Shown: positions 1,441 to 15,359 of the stretch, in pieces | How positions within the stretch are numbered: the stretch's first letter is position 1 | Layout: the number at the start of each line of letters is the position of its first letter | IMG/VR virus record: IMGVR_UViG_3300046656_000137 | Location: 1-23,522 of that record | Length of the DNA: 23,522 bases | Strand: one strand, 5' to 3' | Origin: a virus | The notes under the pieces: model-generated | Seen by the model: the letters and a program-made list of their open reading frames with translations, nothing else | What the model was told of the DNA's origin: nothing | The model's database searches: none | Made by a program: the position numbers and the translations under genes

Positions 1441-1490
1441 CCATATCCATCCTGACGGTCACTCGTCCAGCGATCAAGCCGGGTGGTTGG

Positions 1491-2405
1491 TTAGCAGCTC
1501 CCAGCGTTGCCGGGGAGGCCTCCGCCCGACGTGTAGCCAGGACCGCCGTAGTAGATGGTCCGGTTGGCAGCGGACGCGAACGACACGTTGTACGCACTCG
1601 AGTCGGTGATCGCCCCGTACGAGAAATAGCTGGTCGCGGCCGAGTTGACCAGCGACAGGCTGCCGACGTACGGGTGACCAGTGGTCGCAGGAGAGCCCTG
1701 GAGGAAGCCGTCACTCATGTCGCCGCACGGCTTGTCGTTCGCCGTCCCCGGGTTGTTGGCCCCGTTGTAGGCGTATTCACCGAACGCCAGCACGTACTGC
1801 GCCTTGGACCATCCGGCCGTGAATGCCGTTGGCTGCCAGCAACCGATGTGTGCGGGGGTCGGCGAGGTGCCGTAGTAGACATGCCAGCCGTTCGACGACA
1901 GACCACAGTCGAGATCGGAGTGGTACACCTGAATCAGCTTGGCGGTGCCGAGGACGGAGGTCAAGTCAGCGCCCAGGTTAGTGGAAGTACCCGTGTCGTC
2001 CACCCACGGACCCCCCGTACCGTTGTAGCACCCGGTAACCGGCGAGCCGTTGTGCCAGGCGCACGAGTAGAGATGGGCGTGGCTGTCACCCCACACGTCG
2101 TACGCGACCGCGATCCCGGCCTCGACGCAGTCCCCGGCGGTGACCGTGGTGTCCCGGCAGGCGCCCTCCGCGATCAGCGAGTGGTCCCGGACGCCTCCGT
2201 AGACCGTGGTCGGCACGTACGGCGCGACGACGTAGAAGCTGCCGGAAATGCCGTCGGAGTCCTGCGGCGCGACCAGCGTCTGGCTGACGGTGGCATAGTA
2301 GAAGCCAGCGCCGGTGAATGGAGTGGCCTGGGCCGGAGAGGCGATCCCGACCAGCGCGGCAGCGAACACCAGCGCGGCGCCCACGAACGAAACGAACTTC
2401 CTCAC
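1491..2405 (-). CDS. Secreted neprosin-like glutamic peptidase, 304 aa
   Basis: The start is GTG at 2405, coupled by a GTGA overlap to the endolysin stop; the open frame upstream is a shadow. Residues 1-27 form a classical signal peptide: basic MRK, hydrophobic core, then AQA before a likely cleavage after residue 27. The mature part resembles the neprosin (DUF239) family, prolyl endopeptidases first known from plants. Hallmarks visible are EAGIAV (95-100), YDVWGDSHAHLY (102-113), TGCYN (124-128), WHVYYG (174-179), IGCWQP (187-192) and FGEYAY (208-213). E95 and E210 match the two catalytic glutamates of neprosin (188 and 297), spaced 115 residues here against 109. Eight cysteines suggest disulfides after export. 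It sits between the endolysin and membrane lysis genes, so a role in degrading host envelope or surface protein at lysis is plausible. The family call is from motifs only. Confidence 0.7.
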   Translation of the reverse strand: MRKFVSFVGAALVFAAALVGIASPAQATPFTGAGFYYATVSQTLVAPQDSDGISGSFYVVAPYVPTTVYGGVRDHSLIAEGACRDTTVTAGDCVEAGIAVAYDVWGDSHAHLYSCAWHNGSPVTGCYNGTGGPWVDDTGTSTNLGADLTSVLGTAKLIQVYHSDLDCGLSSNGWHVYYGTSPTPAHIGCWQPTAFTAGWSKAQYVLAFGEYAYNGANNPGTANDKPCGDMSDGFLQGSPATTGHPYVGSLSLVNSAATSYFSYGAITDSSAYNVSFASAANRTIYYGGPGYTSGGGLPGNAGSC

Positions 2406-3229
2406 TTGCTGGACTCCTGTCCCTCGGTGATGCCGGTAAAGTGGGCCTGGAGCTTGTCGTTCATCGAGTCGACCTTGGCCGTCAGCGTGTCGACCTTGGT
2501 GTCGATGCCGGTAACGGTCTTCTCGGTGTCGTAGACCGTCTGGCCGACCTGCGAGTCGTACTCGTACTGCATGAGCTGACCCTCGACGAACGGCGCGCCG
2601 GGCCGACGCTGGCAGTTCACCGCGTGGCCGACCGGAGCTTCCGGCTTGGGCGGAGTGCCCATGGCCTTGCTCTGCATGAAGTACTCGTCCAGCCATGCGA
2701 ACAGCGTTGCTTTGTCAGGCATGTCGTCTGCAACTCCCCACGGGCTGACGTCGTTCTCGCACGACGTCTCGTATCGGGCACTGAAATGTGCGTGGTTAGT
2801 GTGCGGGTCACTGGTCGCGGTGTACGGCTTCCACGCGAAGTCGTCGACGTCCTTGTCGGCGATCTGGCCGAACCAGATCACGTAGTTCAGGCGGCACTTG
2901 TCGTTCGGGTCGAGCCACCGCTTGCGTTCGCGGTCGACGATCTCGTGAATCTTCTGGTCGTACCAGCTGCCCTTGATGTCCCCACGCTTGCCGTCCGGCC
3001 ACGGCCCGGTCGAGTCGCAGTCGTAGGCGTGGACCTCGTTGATTGCGTCCGAGTCCTTACTCCTCAGGACATCGGAGTCCTCGTCCGGCGTGTGGTCCGA
3101 GCTCGACTTGTGACTCTGGTCGCCGACGAAACCCTCGGCTCCCTTGTCCCGCCCACTACCGGCTGGCGAGGCCTCGTCGAACTCGCCTTGCAGTGCCTTC
3201 AGACACGGGATGACTACCCAGCTGCTCAT
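2402..3229 (-). CDS. Endolysin-like M15-type peptidase, 275 aa
   Basis: The ATG at 3229 follows GAAGGGGGAAC, a strong ribosome-binding site. The N-terminal domain (about residues 1-155) has the metal-site pattern of D-Ala-D-Ala peptidases of the M15/VanY type, as in many actinophage lysins: SDHTPDEDSDV (45-54), NEVHAYDCDSTG (64-74) and HTNHAHFS (143-150). Candidate zinc ligands are H46 or H67, D70 or D72, and H146 or H148. Such enzymes cut peptidoglycan stem or cross-bridge peptides. There is no signal peptide, so export would need a holin. The C-terminal third has a Pro-rich linker (193-200) and a helical tail (about 230-262, IDTKVDTLTAKVDSMNDKL) that could form a coiled coil. The gene lies after the minor tail genes and overlaps the secreted peptidase gene by 4 bp. 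The enzyme class is fairly secure; the exact bond cut is not. Confidence 0.8.
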   Translation of the reverse strand: MSSWVVIPCLKALQGEFDEASPAGSGRDKGAEGFVGDQSHKSSSDHTPDEDSDVLRSKDSDAINEVHAYDCDSTGPWPDGKRGDIKGSWYDQKIHEIVDRERKRWLDPNDKCRLNYVIWFGQIADKDVDDFAWKPYTATSDPHTNHAHFSARYETSCENDVSPWGVADDMPDKATLFAWLDEYFMQSKAMGTPPKPEAPVGHAVNCQRRPGAPFVEGQLMQYEYDSQVGQTVYDTEKTVTGIDTKVDTLTAKVDSMNDKLQAHFTGITEGQESSK

Positions 3230-10781: not shown

Positions 10782-11204
10782 CTACGTGGCGGTCGCTCGG
10801 GCCAGCGGACCCGACCCCGGGAAGGTCACGTCGACCTCACCGACATCGCCGACGCTACCGGAGATCGGGACCCAAGACACGACCACCAGCTTGCCCGAGT
10901 ACTGCGGATTGGACGAGGTGACGGCAGACTGCTGTGCCCTCGCGGCGAAAGTGACCGTGGCGCGCCGGAGCGCCCACATCGCCTCGTCCAGAGCCGCCGC
11001 GTCGTAGTCCTGGTTGAGCGTCAGCGCAGCCTCGAACGACTCGAGTCCGCCCTTGTTCTCCTCTGCCCCGCCGGACCGGAAGTTCGTGGTCTTCTTGGCC
11101 TCGAACGTGTCCTTCAGCTCCAGCTTCTTGAGCCACGGCGAAATGTCGAAAGTCGACGGACCGATCGTCATGGTCGCATCGAGCAGAACGATAGGGTTTG
11201 CCAT
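10782..11204 (-). CDS. Tail tube-type protein, short paralog, 140 aa
   Basis: The ATG at 11204 (MANPIVLLDATMTIG...) follows the strong ribosome-binding site AGGAGGT. The upstream open frame is a shadow of the neighbouring gene. The protein contains LELKDTFEAKK and TTNFRSGGAEENK (about residues 28-53), which recur in the gene upstream as LKEDAEVRK and ITNWRSGGAEENK. It also has an AMWALRRATVTFAAR segment and a beta-rich C-terminus (KLVVVSWVPISGSVGDVGEVDVTFPGSG), typical of tail tube folds. It could be the major tail tube subunit with the longer paralog as tail tip or decoration variant, or the reverse. A strong hairpin follows its stop, as expected for a highly expressed structural gene. Confidence 0.7.
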   Translation of the reverse strand: MANPIVLLDATMTIGPSTFDISPWLKKLELKDTFEAKKTTNFRSGGAEENKGGLESFEAALTLNQDYDAAALDEAMWALRRATVTFAARAQQSAVTSSNPQYSGKLVVVSWVPISGSVGDVGEVDVTFPGSGPLARATAT

Positions 11205-11217
11205 GCGGTTGTACCTC

Positions 11218-11967
11218 CTACTCGATGCCCATCGAAACCAAAAACAGGAAACTCGGTGACGACCCGGTGATCGTCCAACTGACCCGCCAGAACGCGTCGG
11301 TGATCGCCGTGCCGTCGGTGCGCAGTGCCTGGCCACCGAGGGTGGTAGCGGCAGCGAACGAGAGCCGGTCAGTCGGCGAGCCGAATCCCACCGCAGCCGC
11401 CGACTGGATCTTCGCAGTGATCGTCGGTGTCGAGGTGCCCGCGATCGACAGGACATGCAGATTCGCGTACATCCGCTTGCCCGCAGTGATCGCTCCGGGG
11501 TTGAGGATGGTCCCCGTGCCGGTCGCCGTCCTCGGTACCCCAGACGCGTGACCGCAAATCCCCCGGACCAGCGGCCAGGTCGACCGGGCCTCACCCTCCC
11601 ACGGTGCGACCGCCCCGACGTCGCTGAACAGCTGGAGGTTGGTCCGTAGCGCCTTGACCAGGTACATCAGGCCGCCTGCAGCAAGGTCCGAGTCGGCCTT
11701 GGGGGCGGCAGACCACGGATCGAGTGTCCGGCGCATCGCCCAGAACACGTCGTCCGGCTTGCCGAGGTCTCCGGCCTCCCACTGGCCACCGGCCTTGATC
11801 GAGCAACCGTGCAGCGAGGCCTTGTTCTCCTCGGCACCACCCGAACGCCAGTTGGTGATTTTGCGGACCTCGGCGTCCTCTTTGAGCTCGATGTTGTTGC
11901 CGTTGCCAGACAGGTCCGCTCCCGCGACGAACAGCCGAGCGTCGAGTAGGACGAGGGGATTCGCCAT
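11218..11967 (-). CDS. Tail tube-type protein, long paralog, 249 aa
   Basis: The ATG at 11967 overlaps the stop of the tail terminator gene as TGATG. The N-terminal half (MANPLVLLDARLFVAG, ELKEDAEVRKITNWRSGGAEENK, FWAMRRTLDPWSA) is a paralog of the 140-aa protein downstream. The C-terminal half, from about residue 110 (GLMYLVKALRTNLQLFSDVG), is an added beta-rich domain (RMYANLHVLSIAGTSTPTIT, FWRVSWTITGSSPSFLFLVSMG). I recall similar segments in actinophage tail proteins. It is likely the major tail protein carrying a surface-exposed extra domain. The two genes are 13 bp apart, with the ribosome-binding site of the second in the gap. Confidence 0.7.
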   Translation of the reverse strand: MANPLVLLDARLFVAGADLSGNGNNIELKEDAEVRKITNWRSGGAEENKASLHGCSIKAGGQWEAGDLGKPDDVFWAMRRTLDPWSAAPKADSDLAAGGLMYLVKALRTNLQLFSDVGAVAPWEGEARSTWPLVRGICGHASGVPRTATGTGTILNPGAITAGKRMYANLHVLSIAGTSTPTITAKIQSAAAVGFGSPTDRLSFAAATTLGGQALRTDGTAITDAFWRVSWTITGSSPSFLFLVSMGIE

Positions 11968-13002: not shown

Positions 13003-13701
13003 TCACCCCCCTACGCTCCGGAGCAGCTTAGCATCCCGGTCGAGCCCGTCCGCCACCCATGAGCGAAGTAGATGCTCGTCCCGTTCGTACTGCTGCGGCC
13101 GGTTGACCCGGATGTACTGGTCGTCCGGCCTGGCCTTACCGACGAACGGATGCATGTGCTCGATGAGGATCGTCTCGTCGTACCCGAGGCAACCCGCCTT
13201 ATCGCCCAGCAGCTTGACCGCGTCGTCGCAGTACAGGTGCTGGACGGGGGCCGGGACCATCCCGCCAAGCCGACGCACGATCTCAGCATCCATCGACCAC
13301 CAGGTTGGCTTGTTCTGGTCCTGGAAACCGTCCTTGCCGTACCAGATCCAGTTCGGGTTGTGCCCGTGGTCGACCAGCAGACGGCTGGCCCAGTTCGGCG
13401 TCCGGGGGATGTGGTCGTCTCCCATGAACGCCAGGTATCGGTACTCCCTGGTCTTAGCGACCTCGTCCGCCACCGTGTTCAGCTTCGGGACCAGCGGCAT
13501 CCACTCCGGCAGGATCTCCAACTTCGGACCGGTCTGCCCATTCAGCACGTCCTGGTAGCCGCCGATCTGCATGTCGTCCGCATCCGCCACGAACAGCAGG
13601 TCGGCAAACCCGAACGCTCCGGTCTCCCACCAGGCTTGCAGAATCGGCTCGACGTTGTGCGGACGGCTGCGGGTCGGAACAATCACCAGCAGGTCAGTCA
13701 T
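13003..13701 (-). CDS. Glycosyltransferase-like protein (GT-A fold), 232 aa
   Basis: The ATG at 13701 overlaps the stop of the methyltransferase gene by 8 bp. The N-terminus LLVIVPTRSRPHNVEPILQAW is the classic opening of family 2-type glycosyltransferases. Then come LLFVADADD (35-43) and YLAFMGDDHIPRTPNW (89-104), where GDD (94-96) takes the place of the metal-binding DxD. Further conserved-looking points are WWSMDAEIVRRLGG, YCDDAVKLL (157-165) and IEHMHPF (180-186). It probably transfers a sugar from a nucleotide donor to a protein or another sugar. With the neighbouring glycosyltransferase and methyltransferase it forms a coupled three-gene set in the head-to-tail module. Acceptor and sugar are unknown. 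Confidence 0.7.
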   Translation of the reverse strand: MTDLLVIVPTRSRPHNVEPILQAWWETGAFGFADLLFVADADDMQIGGYQDVLNGQTGPKLEILPEWMPLVPKLNTVADEVAKTREYRYLAFMGDDHIPRTPNWASRLLVDHGHNPNWIWYGKDGFQDQNKPTWWSMDAEIVRRLGGMVPAPVQHLYCDDAVKLLGDKAGCLGYDETILIEHMHPFVGKARPDDQYIRVNRPQQYERDEHLLRSWVADGLDRDAKLLRSVGG

Positions 13702-14404
13702 CTTTGCGCCACCACCCTACCGGCGAATGCGAGATCCCATGCAGGCCCTCGACCGACGTGTCCCGCCAAAAGCCCTTGGCAGACAGCAACGGGAAGGTGT
13801 CCTGAATCGCCGGGAGCGCCCCGCCGAGCTCCGGGATCCGGTGACCACCGTGCCGCGCCCGCTCCGGGTACTTCGCGACCCACATGTCGAAGCAGGCGTC
13901 CTCGATGACCAGGTAGCAGCCCGGCGTCACGAACGACGACCAGATCCGGATCTCGTCGGCGACGTGCTGATAGTGGTGGTCCGAGTCGAGACTAACCATG
14001 ACCCGCTGACCCGACTGGATCCGCTCGCCGACCTCGAAGGCCAGCCGGGTATCGACCGAGCTCCAGCCGACCAGCCACTCGATCCTGTCGGTATTCGACT
14101 GCCGCCGGGCCTGGGTGCCTGCGTCCCGGTCGATGTCGATCGTGAGCACCTTCAGGCCCTGCTCTTCGAACCACAGGGCCGACCCGCCCTGTCGGGTACC
14201 GGTCTCGATCACCAGATCCGGCTGACTGATCTCGATGAGGTCGGAGTATCGATCGAGGTCGTAAGCGCTCTTCTGGAGCTCGACATTCCCGATGTAGGCG
14301 TGGTAGGCGTGGTTCTCGAACGTACGCCAAGTCCCGTCGCTGTCCCAACTCGGCAACGGAACCAGGTCGGCCGCCGAGCCGGGGATCTGCTTAGCCGACG
14401 ACAC
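13694..14404 (-). CDS. CmcI-like SAM-dependent methyltransferase / cephalosporin-hydroxylase family, 236 aa
   Basis: The start is GTG at 14404 (VSSAKQIPGS...), inside the end of the preceding gene (14-bp overlap). Residues 65-75, VIETGTRQGGS, form the SAM-binding loop; VLTIDID (86-92) ends strand two with an acidic residue for ribose. SLDSDHHYQHV (138-148) and CYLVIEDAC (163-171) match the CmcI/rhamnosyl O-methyltransferase family. D140 or D142, E168 and D169 are candidate metal ligands, as in CmcI. Related enzymes O-methylate sugars in glycolipids and glycopeptides. Sitting between two glycosyltransferase-like genes, it most likely methylates the sugar they attach. The name cephalosporin hydroxylase should not be read as activity. 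Confidence 0.75.
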   Translation of the reverse strand: MSSAKQIPGSAADLVPLPSWDSDGTWRTFENHAYHAYIGNVELQKSAYDLDRYSDLIEISQPDLVIETGTRQGGSALWFEEQGLKVLTIDIDRDAGTQARRQSNTDRIEWLVGWSSVDTRLAFEVGERIQSGQRVMVSLDSDHHYQHVADEIRIWSSFVTPGCYLVIEDACFDMWVAKYPERARHGGHRIPELGGALPAIQDTFPLLSAKGFWRDTSVEGLHGISHSPVGWWRKDD

Positions 14405-15359
14405 GGGACCCCCCTGTACAGACGCAGACCCAGTCGAAGTTGCCCTGGTCGTCCCGTAGACCGGCCATCATGGGTTGGCCGTGGTCCGGGCACGCCTTCC
14501 GGATCTTCGGCTGGCCGTCGTCCTTCGCTGCCTCCATCAGCCGAGCCATCGGCTCAACCTCAGGCATCCGGTAGTCGTCCTCGGAAAGCCAGAACTCCTT
14601 GTGGTGCGACACCTTAACACCGGTGTGCACAAAGATCGGGATCTCGTACTTACCGACCCGGTAGCAGAACGACAGGTCCTCACTGACCTGCATGCCGTCC
14701 TTGTACGACACGAAGTCGAACCAGTGGTCGCCGTCGTCTTTGCGGATCCGCTCGAGCACCGACCGATGGATCAGCAGAAACGCCGCGCCCGTCCCGGCGA
14801 CCTGAACCAGCGTCTCCGGCGGGTAGCGGAATCGATTGGCGAAACCAAAACCCTGGTCGGGGGTCTGGCCCCACATGAATAGGGTCGGCAGCGGCCGGAC
14901 GACGAAACCGCCCTTGCCGTCGGGACCCATGTGCTTGAGCGCGAAGCACAGGCCACCGACAACCGGCCGTTCAACGGGGTCGGCAGCGAGCCGCACGCGC
15001 TCGATCGCATCGGCCTCGAAGCCCATGTCGGTGTCCAGGAACATCAGCCAACTGGCGTCGGTCTCGTCTAGGAAGTGCTTGGCCGCCATGTTGCGACCCT
15101 CGACCAGCGAGTTCGGGCCGGAGCAGCTCACCGCAAACGGCGCGTTCTCGTACATGTTGAGGCCGACCGACTTGTCGTAGGCGATCGCATTCATGAGCGA
15201 GATGTGCCACGAGTGCGACACCTGCCCCGGGTGCAGGTAGGCGATCTGCACTGTGCCCCCGGGAGGCCCCTCCCAGCCTTCTCCCGCGAACTCGGGGGCC
15301 TCGGCCGGTATATCGGTGGGGGGACGGCCCGTCTCGTCCTCCGGAGCCGCCCCCGTCAC
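14391..15359 (-). CDS. Glycosyltransferase family 2-like protein, 322 aa
   Basis: The start is GTG at 15359 (VTGAAPEDETG...), forming a GTGA overlap with the 80-aa gene; the open frame further upstream is a shadow. An acidic, Pro-rich tail (1-35) precedes a GT-A-like domain: VQIAYLHPGQVSHSW (37-51), LVEGRNMAAKHFL (85-97), WLMFLDTDMGF (104-114) with DTD 109-111 as metal-binding DxD, GLCFALK, GTGAAFLLIHRSVLERI, and VSEDLSFCYRV (225-235), where E227-D228 fit the usual catalytic acidic pair. HTGVKVSHH (245-253) may add a metal ligand. The C-terminus holds CPDHG (290-294) and CVC (312-314), a likely zinc-ribbon. It probably starts glycosylation of a virion protein. The target is unknown. Confidence 0.75.
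   Translation of the reverse strand: MTGAAPEDETGRPPTDIPAEAPEFAGEGWEGPPGGTVQIAYLHPGQVSHSWHISLMNAIAYDKSVGLNMYENAPFAVSCSGPNSLVEGRNMAAKHFLDETDASWLMFLDTDMGFEADAIERVRLAADPVERPVVGGLCFALKHMGPDGKGGFVVRPLPTLFMWGQTPDQGFGFANRFRYPPETLVQVAGTGAAFLLIHRSVLERIRKDDGDHWFDFVSYKDGMQVSEDLSFCYRVGKYEIPIFVHTGVKVSHHKEFWLSEDDYRMPEVEPMARLMEAAKDDGQPKIRKACPDHGQPMMAGLRDDQGNFDWVCVCTGGSRVVG

Follow-up and report, generated by a model that had tools for sequence, protein, structure and literature searches.

Why does a phage carry a gene for a secreted relative of a plant peptidase, and does this gene belong to its lysis machinery? Neprosin (Pfam PF03080) is a glutamic-class prolyl endopeptidase of pitcher plants (Nepenthes). 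An ORF encoding a neprosin-family protein was found coupled to an endolysin-like gene in a 23.5-kb virus record, the whole of which was analysed and is here called the window.

Organization of the Window and Its Lysis Cassette

The window encodes terminase, capsid, tape-measure, and tail proteins. The nearest isolated phages infect actinobacteria, and the large tail protein of the window points to Streptomyces, Actinoplanes, and Thermobifida. A search of 396 actinobacterial genomes with the phage-type profile matched only the centre genome, so that it gave no host assignment; the host of the window phage is assigned to the actinobacteria and to no finer level. Sibling phages were found whose capsids are 69–93% identical to that of the window.

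The neprosin-family ORF encodes 304 aa on the minus strand, from a GTG start at 2405 to a stop ending at 1491. Its GTG lies inside the TGA stop of a 275-aa gene (3229..2402), giving a GTGA overlap; location, length, and overlap are as given in the original prediction. The three small membrane-protein ORFs that had been placed after the neprosin gene are present and conserved in sibling phages. The features of this region are as follows.

2402–3229, minus: endolysin-like protein with an M15-like motif, overlapping the neprosin start, in the position equivalent to the endolysin gene of the siblings
2414–2418, minus: ribosome-binding site AGGAG inside the endolysin-like gene, 9–13 nt 5′ of the GTG
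1491–2405, minus: 304-aa product of the neprosin family (PF03080), predicted to be secreted, translated from GTG (profile, relatives, fold)
2325–2405, minus: predicted signal peptide, residues 1–27, probable cleavage after AQA (read from the sequence)
1177–1440, minus: small membrane protein 1 of the lysis cassette (sibling DNA match up to 1453; sibling ORF L031:696–884)
816–1142, minus: small membrane protein 2 of the lysis cassette (homologues 56–63% identical in G019 and G014, 69% in G016)
611–808, minus: small membrane protein 3 of the lysis cassette (sibling homologues 52–64% identical)

The N-terminus of the 304-aa protein (MRKFVSFVGAALVFAAALVGIASPAQA, followed by TPF after the probable cleavage site) contains n, h, and c regions and an AxA site when read by eye, and the predicted signal peptide ends with ASPAQA. 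In the alignment, all relatives have a signal peptide, which is typical and has an AxA site in the copies that were read. The ORF is regarded as a gene and not as a chance frame because it matches the curated PF03080 profile and its relatives are under purifying selection (see below).

The upstream gene had been named an M15-type endolysin. Its position and its M15-like motif (SDH..D...HAxD...HxxHAHFS, invariant in seven homologues) agree with that name, but neither M15 nor any other family was matched in searches against Pfam, NCBIfam, and PDB profiles. A homologue of the gene, Pas66 of Actinoplanes phage phiAsp2, has no function named in its record.

Elsewhere in the window, three adjacent minus-strand genes (13003–15251) lie between the capsid and head-tail genes; the first of them (14391–15251) matches a PHROG named glycosyltransferase, and each of the three is conserved in those siblings whose data cover this region. 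Besides, two adjacent minus-strand genes (10782–11967), with products starting MANPIVLLDA and MANPLVLLDA, look like a duplication of a tail protein and are conserved in siblings.

Family Membership and Predicted Fold

The window protein matched PF03080 (Neprosin) with 40 bits (cut-off 22; E = 3.6e-10), and seven phage relatives, scanned in the same manner, scored 22.4–46.6 bits, all above the cut-off. An AlphaFold2 model built from a 45-row alignment reached a pLDDT of 84.2 and a pTM of 0.83; an earlier model from six sequences (pLDDT 56) was set aside. When the model was compared to the PDB with Foldseek, the best five matches were all neprosin (E = 1.5e-12 to 3.5e-11, probability 1.00; TM 0.66/0.77 for the best), the sixth was scytalidoglutamic peptidase, and weak matches to alginate lyase and glucanases were obtained. 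The alignment profile found neprosin structures among PDB sequences at E = 1.4e-26. The family assignment of the original prediction is therefore borne out by a profile match above the cut-off and by a predicted neprosin fold, with E95 and E210 aligned by sequence to the neprosin dyad. Its description of a phage-borne, secreted protein with the dyad kept is likewise supported by the PF03080 match, the fold, the alignment, and the signal peptide as read by eye.

Compared to Nepenthes neprosin (PDB 7zu8, 7zva, 7zvb, 7zvc, and 9qr8), the window protein has the fold, the PF03080 profile, the predicted secretion, and both catalytic glutamates with their context (EAG; GE) in common at about 19% identity. 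The phage proteins differ in being without the plant-type pro-domain, in their length of 300–335 aa, and in being phage-borne. Scytalidoglutamic peptidase (an eqolisin, PDB 2ifw) has a distantly similar fold (Foldseek E = 2e-3, TM 0.43/0.60) and one catalytic glutamate position in common (PMC9343461), but it contains a Q/E instead of an E/E dyad and is 8% identical to the window protein.

A tblastn search of 50,697 phage records with the window protein (P0002), the L009 protein, and the distant neprosin P0007 of sibling G014 (see below) gave no neprosin-family match, and P0002 found nothing in 72,556 plasmids. The phage clade matched no family in PHROGs, Foldseek against viral predicted structures (BFVD) gave weak jelly-roll matches and none that was clear, and a literature search for neprosin together with phage or virus returned nothing relevant. 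The neprosin relationship of this phage gene family is real, and the family is undescribed as far as the collections searched show.

Active Site: Kept Dyad and Lost Residues

The 45-row alignment was composed of the phage clade and 34 other rows (33 from the bacterial collection and P0007). The codons of interest in the window are the following.

2121–2123, minus: E95, corresponding to catalytic E188 of neprosin (invariant, 45/45)
1776–1778, minus: E210, corresponding to catalytic E297 of neprosin (invariant, 45/45)
2181–2183, minus: H75, at the place of neprosin F169 (no exception among the 45 bacterial and phage sequences)
2055–2057, minus: W117, T210 in neprosin (W in 43/45, F in 2/45)
2163–2171, minus: A79, E80, and G81; positions 79 and 81 are neprosin Q173 and W175, lost here (alignment; PMC9343461)

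E188 and E297 form the catalytic dyad of neprosin (PMC9343461), and the spacing of the aligned E95 and E210, 115 residues compared to 109 in neprosin, is the one that had been stated. Invariant positions in the alignment include E95, E210, H75, G52, P62, L77, and C126, among which the two glutamates are the only acidic residues.

In neprosin, the mutations Q173A and W175A abolish activity altogether, and activity drops by about 80% in H134A, Y136A, and Y214A (PMC9343461). Both oxyanion-hole residues, Q173 and W175, are kept in no aligned phage or bacterial relative: the phage clade contains A/E/D/S at the Q173 position and G/A/V/T/I at the W175 position, and the 34 other rows contain E at the former and A or S at the latter. 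Y214 corresponds to S121 in the window protein, and H134 and Y136 are without counterpart in the alignment. Since the positions of neprosin F169 and T210 lie on strands adjoining the E188 strand, with the same parity as known cleft residues, H75 and W117 may stand in for the lost Q173 and W175. Proline-directed cleavage, which the original prediction had suggested, is unsupported by the sequence since Q173 and W175 are replaced by A79 and G81 (PMC9343461); proline specificity, and strictly even peptidase activity, is for the same reason not to be assumed.

Peptidase activity of the window protein is likely, judged from the fold and the dyad, and is made less certain by the lost oxyanion residues, with which the enzyme activity of the phage family could be changed or absent. 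The loss of two residues that are essential in the plant enzyme would agree with a neprosin fold devoid of peptidase activity, serving as a binding protein, an inhibitor, or a hydrolase of another substrate such as a cell-surface polymer, and the beta-sandwich is a fold common to glycan-active proteins, as the weak alginate lyase and glucanase matches illustrate. However, a pure binder would not need the two invariant glutamates, the bacterial replacements are so uniform (E and A/S) that they may represent an alternative active site instead of decay, and outside neprosin the closest fold also belongs to a glutamic peptidase. We consider this alternative rather unlikely and prefer that of an active glutamic peptidase.

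A Phage Clade and Its Bacterial Relatives

Two scans of viral contigs detected eleven loci (L002–L012) with relatives at best-segment identities of 42–86%, including a truncated copy (L012) identical to the copy in L011. Eleven phage sequences, the window copy among them, fell into one clade with a support of 100/100 on a long stem, and the dN/dS values of the relatives (0.08–0.34 over 265–300 codons) showed purifying selection.

Peptide patterns taken from the phage alignment found no relative in bacterial genomes. The pattern CYNGCG[FY]V was found in 53 stretches of bacterial genomes, most of which encode neprosin-family proteins. Such proteins were present in Actinoplanes, Streptomyces, Kitasatospora, Catenulispora, and others, and those from the four named genera were 24–31% identical to the phage protein. 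The dyad, H75, W117, and the loss of Q173 and W175 are common to the bacterial and the phage proteins. The bacterial ones differ in being cellular and, in many cases, in having longer N-terminal regions, whereas the phage copies form the separate long-stemmed clade and contain an extra segment around NDKPCGD.

A neprosin-family ORF was also found on a contig binned as Candidatus Saccharibacteria (L107:1–933). This contig could be phage or misbinned, because its ORF is the closest match in the bacterial collection to the phage neprosin of G014 (39%).

Gene Context in Siblings and Other Carriers

Comparisons of the window with other phages showed two stretches of particular extent.

1453–3176, no strand: stretch without DNA similarity to siblings G014 and G019, similarity stopping and resuming at its ends (blastn)
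1529–2337, minus: the only DNA common to the first 5 kb of the window and the unrelated phage G001 (85% identity), a gene-bounded transfer of the neprosin gene

In siblings G014, G016, and G019, an endolysin gene, which in G016 is of the Amidase_2 type, is followed by the same small membrane proteins, and the cassette contains no neprosin gene. The dissimilarity of 1453–3176 to G014 and G019 indicates that the endolysin gene was exchanged and the neprosin gene added. Because the contig-wide family scan had missed L006, L010, and L011, though all three exceed the Pfam cut-off when scanned directly, the absence from siblings was rechecked by a six-frame profile search, which found no neprosin in G015–G019. 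G014 carries the distant neprosin P0007 (360 aa; L060:4001–5083 = G014:13069–14151) between tail genes; in the tree it fell outside the phage clade on a long branch with unsure placement, and its presence at another site is likely an independent acquisition.

Just after the small membrane genes of G016 (G016:21912–22400, in L051), a 162-aa protein with a signal peptide, several cysteines, and no Pfam match is encoded. Judged by this protein, the late operon may end in a preferred insertion site for secreted cargo.

Of the 11 copies in the phage clade, the window copy alone has the same direction as an endolysin gene and is coupled to it; the ten others are found next to terminase, amid early genes, or in convergent orientation to lysis genes. 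Seven of them (L002–L008) belong to a second phage group, recognized by Terminase_3 and portal matches in Pfam and with 52% terminase identity to Thermobifida phage P1312, and are located directly before the terminase gene. In the near-complete G001 the gene is about 19 kb from the presumed lysis genes, in L009 it is flanked on both sides by opposite-strand genes, and in L010 its place is a non-structural region, downstream of a helicase gene. Near the neprosin gene of L009, an ADP-ribosyltransferase exoenzyme domain was detected on the minus strand (L009:2824–4170; PF03496, E = 5e-15).

The motif TATACT-N6 precedes the neprosin start codon in L002–L007. G001 and G003 each contain three TATACT sites, all of them exactly 6 nt ahead of a gene start, that of neprosin included; since no TATACT in these two genomes is placed otherwise, the motif looks like a promoter class for leaderless mRNA. 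In G001, G003, and G006 (loci L035–L043), it marks a set of probably leaderless phage promoters. A strong hairpin 3′ of the neprosin gene was found in 9/9 of the other clade copies tested (L002–L004 and L006–L011; z −3.8 to −7.8), whereas the window copy, with a hairpin z of −1.0, has no promoter or terminator of its own.

These contexts bear on whether the protein is a lysis accessory, i.e., a protease that breaches an outer layer made of protein while the cell lyses or just afterwards, and whose coupling to the endolysin is functional. The gene overlap with a ribosome-binding site inside the endolysin-like gene would fit such a function, as would the place inside a cassette with three small membrane proteins and the copy in L011, which adjoins a lysis cassette though in convergent orientation. 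Yet the siblings have the same cassette without neprosin in it, the second group has its copies just before terminase with a separate promoter motif and terminator, and the G001 copy is remote from the lysis genes. A functional coupling is thus quite improbable. The endolysin–neprosin pairing that the original prediction had drawn attention to is not general, being present in 1/11 clade copies and missing from the siblings' cassettes, and the lysis role read from the junction does not hold as a rule, since one further copy is convergent to a lysis cassette and the rest occur at other places, accompanied by a terminator hairpin and, for several, by a candidate promoter of their own. Coupling to lysis is a local feature of the window phage, and the neprosin gene is extra cargo and not a regular part of the lysis machinery.

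Horizontal Transfer and Phage Lifestyle

The 85% DNA identity between the window and G001 ends inside the neprosin gene at both sides, and the other genes of G001 encode proteins with at most 34% identity to window proteins. Similarly, L010 and L011 showed 90.5% DNA identity within gene positions 94–1006 only. In both pairs, most of the part encoding the signal peptide is not common. By computation, these comparisons show that the neprosin gene has moved between unrelated phages.

No tyrosine or serine integrase (PF00589, PF00239, PF07508) was found in the longest related genomes. G006 and G007 look complete because of their end repeats of 127 and 123 bases, and these repeats together with the lack of a detected integrase make the carrier phages look virulent. 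The neprosin gene is mobile cargo of apparently virulent actinophages, captured here by a lysis operon. The novelty lies in a neprosin clade that is confined to phages, mobile, and changed in its active site, and of which the phage record and family collections searched contain no member.

Classic phage morons are single genes with their own promoter and terminator, found mostly in temperate phages. The neprosin gene resembles them as a single gene with varied insertion places that is present or absent among close relatives, but the window copy is without both promoter and terminator. The prophage-encoded secreted protease Jep of Staphylococcus aureus is likewise a phage-borne secreted-protease gene carried as cargo; it differs in being a serine protease of temperate phages, whereas the phage neprosin is a glutamic-type protein in carriers without detected integrase (PMC12554148 for Jep).

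Two further alternatives are very improbable. That the protein is part of the virion or tail, faces outward, and is anchored by its hydrophobic N-terminus could be imagined from the divergent neprosin between tail genes in G014. Against this stand the typical signal peptides with an AxA site in those copies that were read, several gene contexts remote from structural genes, and presence or absence among siblings with otherwise collinear structural genes. A passenger gene of no benefit to the phage, recently taken from a host, would be in line with the bacterial relatives in Actinoplanes, Streptomyces, and Catenulispora, but hardly with a well-supported, long-stemmed phage-only clade, purifying selection with the dyad intact in all copies, and repeated spread between unrelated phages.

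Proposed Function

We give slightly better than an even chance to the explanation that the gene encodes a Sec-exported neprosin-family protein, most likely an active glutamic endopeptidase (E95/E210), that is passed among apparently virulent phages of soil actinobacteria as self-contained, moron-like cargo. An extracellular accessory function is suggested by the mobility of the gene, its autonomy of expression, and the signal peptide. As its sequence suggests, the window protein would be exported by Sec from the infected cell and, given the fold and the dyad, would cut peptides via E95/E210 as a glutamic-class endopeptidase. The most likely targets, we propose, would be proteins on or secreted by infected or neighbouring cells, such as a receptor or sheath, and their cleavage would aid the spread of progeny or limit re-adsorption. 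The gene overlap, the place in the lysis operon, and the lack of an own promoter and terminator suggest that the window copy is expressed late; it would be made with the lysis operon and set free with the lysate. Cleavage of surface or extracellular proteins is our best guess, and a nutrient or counter-defence function is equally compatible with the results.

A more specific and less probable version is that phages have a clade of secreted glutamic peptidases of their own whose active site was rebuilt (E95/E210, with H75 and W117 for plant Q173/W175), and that virulent phages of mycelial actinobacteria exchange its genes so as to cleave proteins of the host surface or outside the cell while infecting, e.g., receptors on debris or on neighbouring hyphae.

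To our knowledge, few phage proteins are known to act outside the cell. A lineage found in phages alone suggests that they count glutamic-type peptidases among their tools. Its passage from one apparently lytic phage to another, unrelated one implies that it is of use outside the cell during infection. With the dyad kept and two residues essential in the plant enzyme lost, the bacterial and phage members offer a direct test of a little-studied peptidase class.
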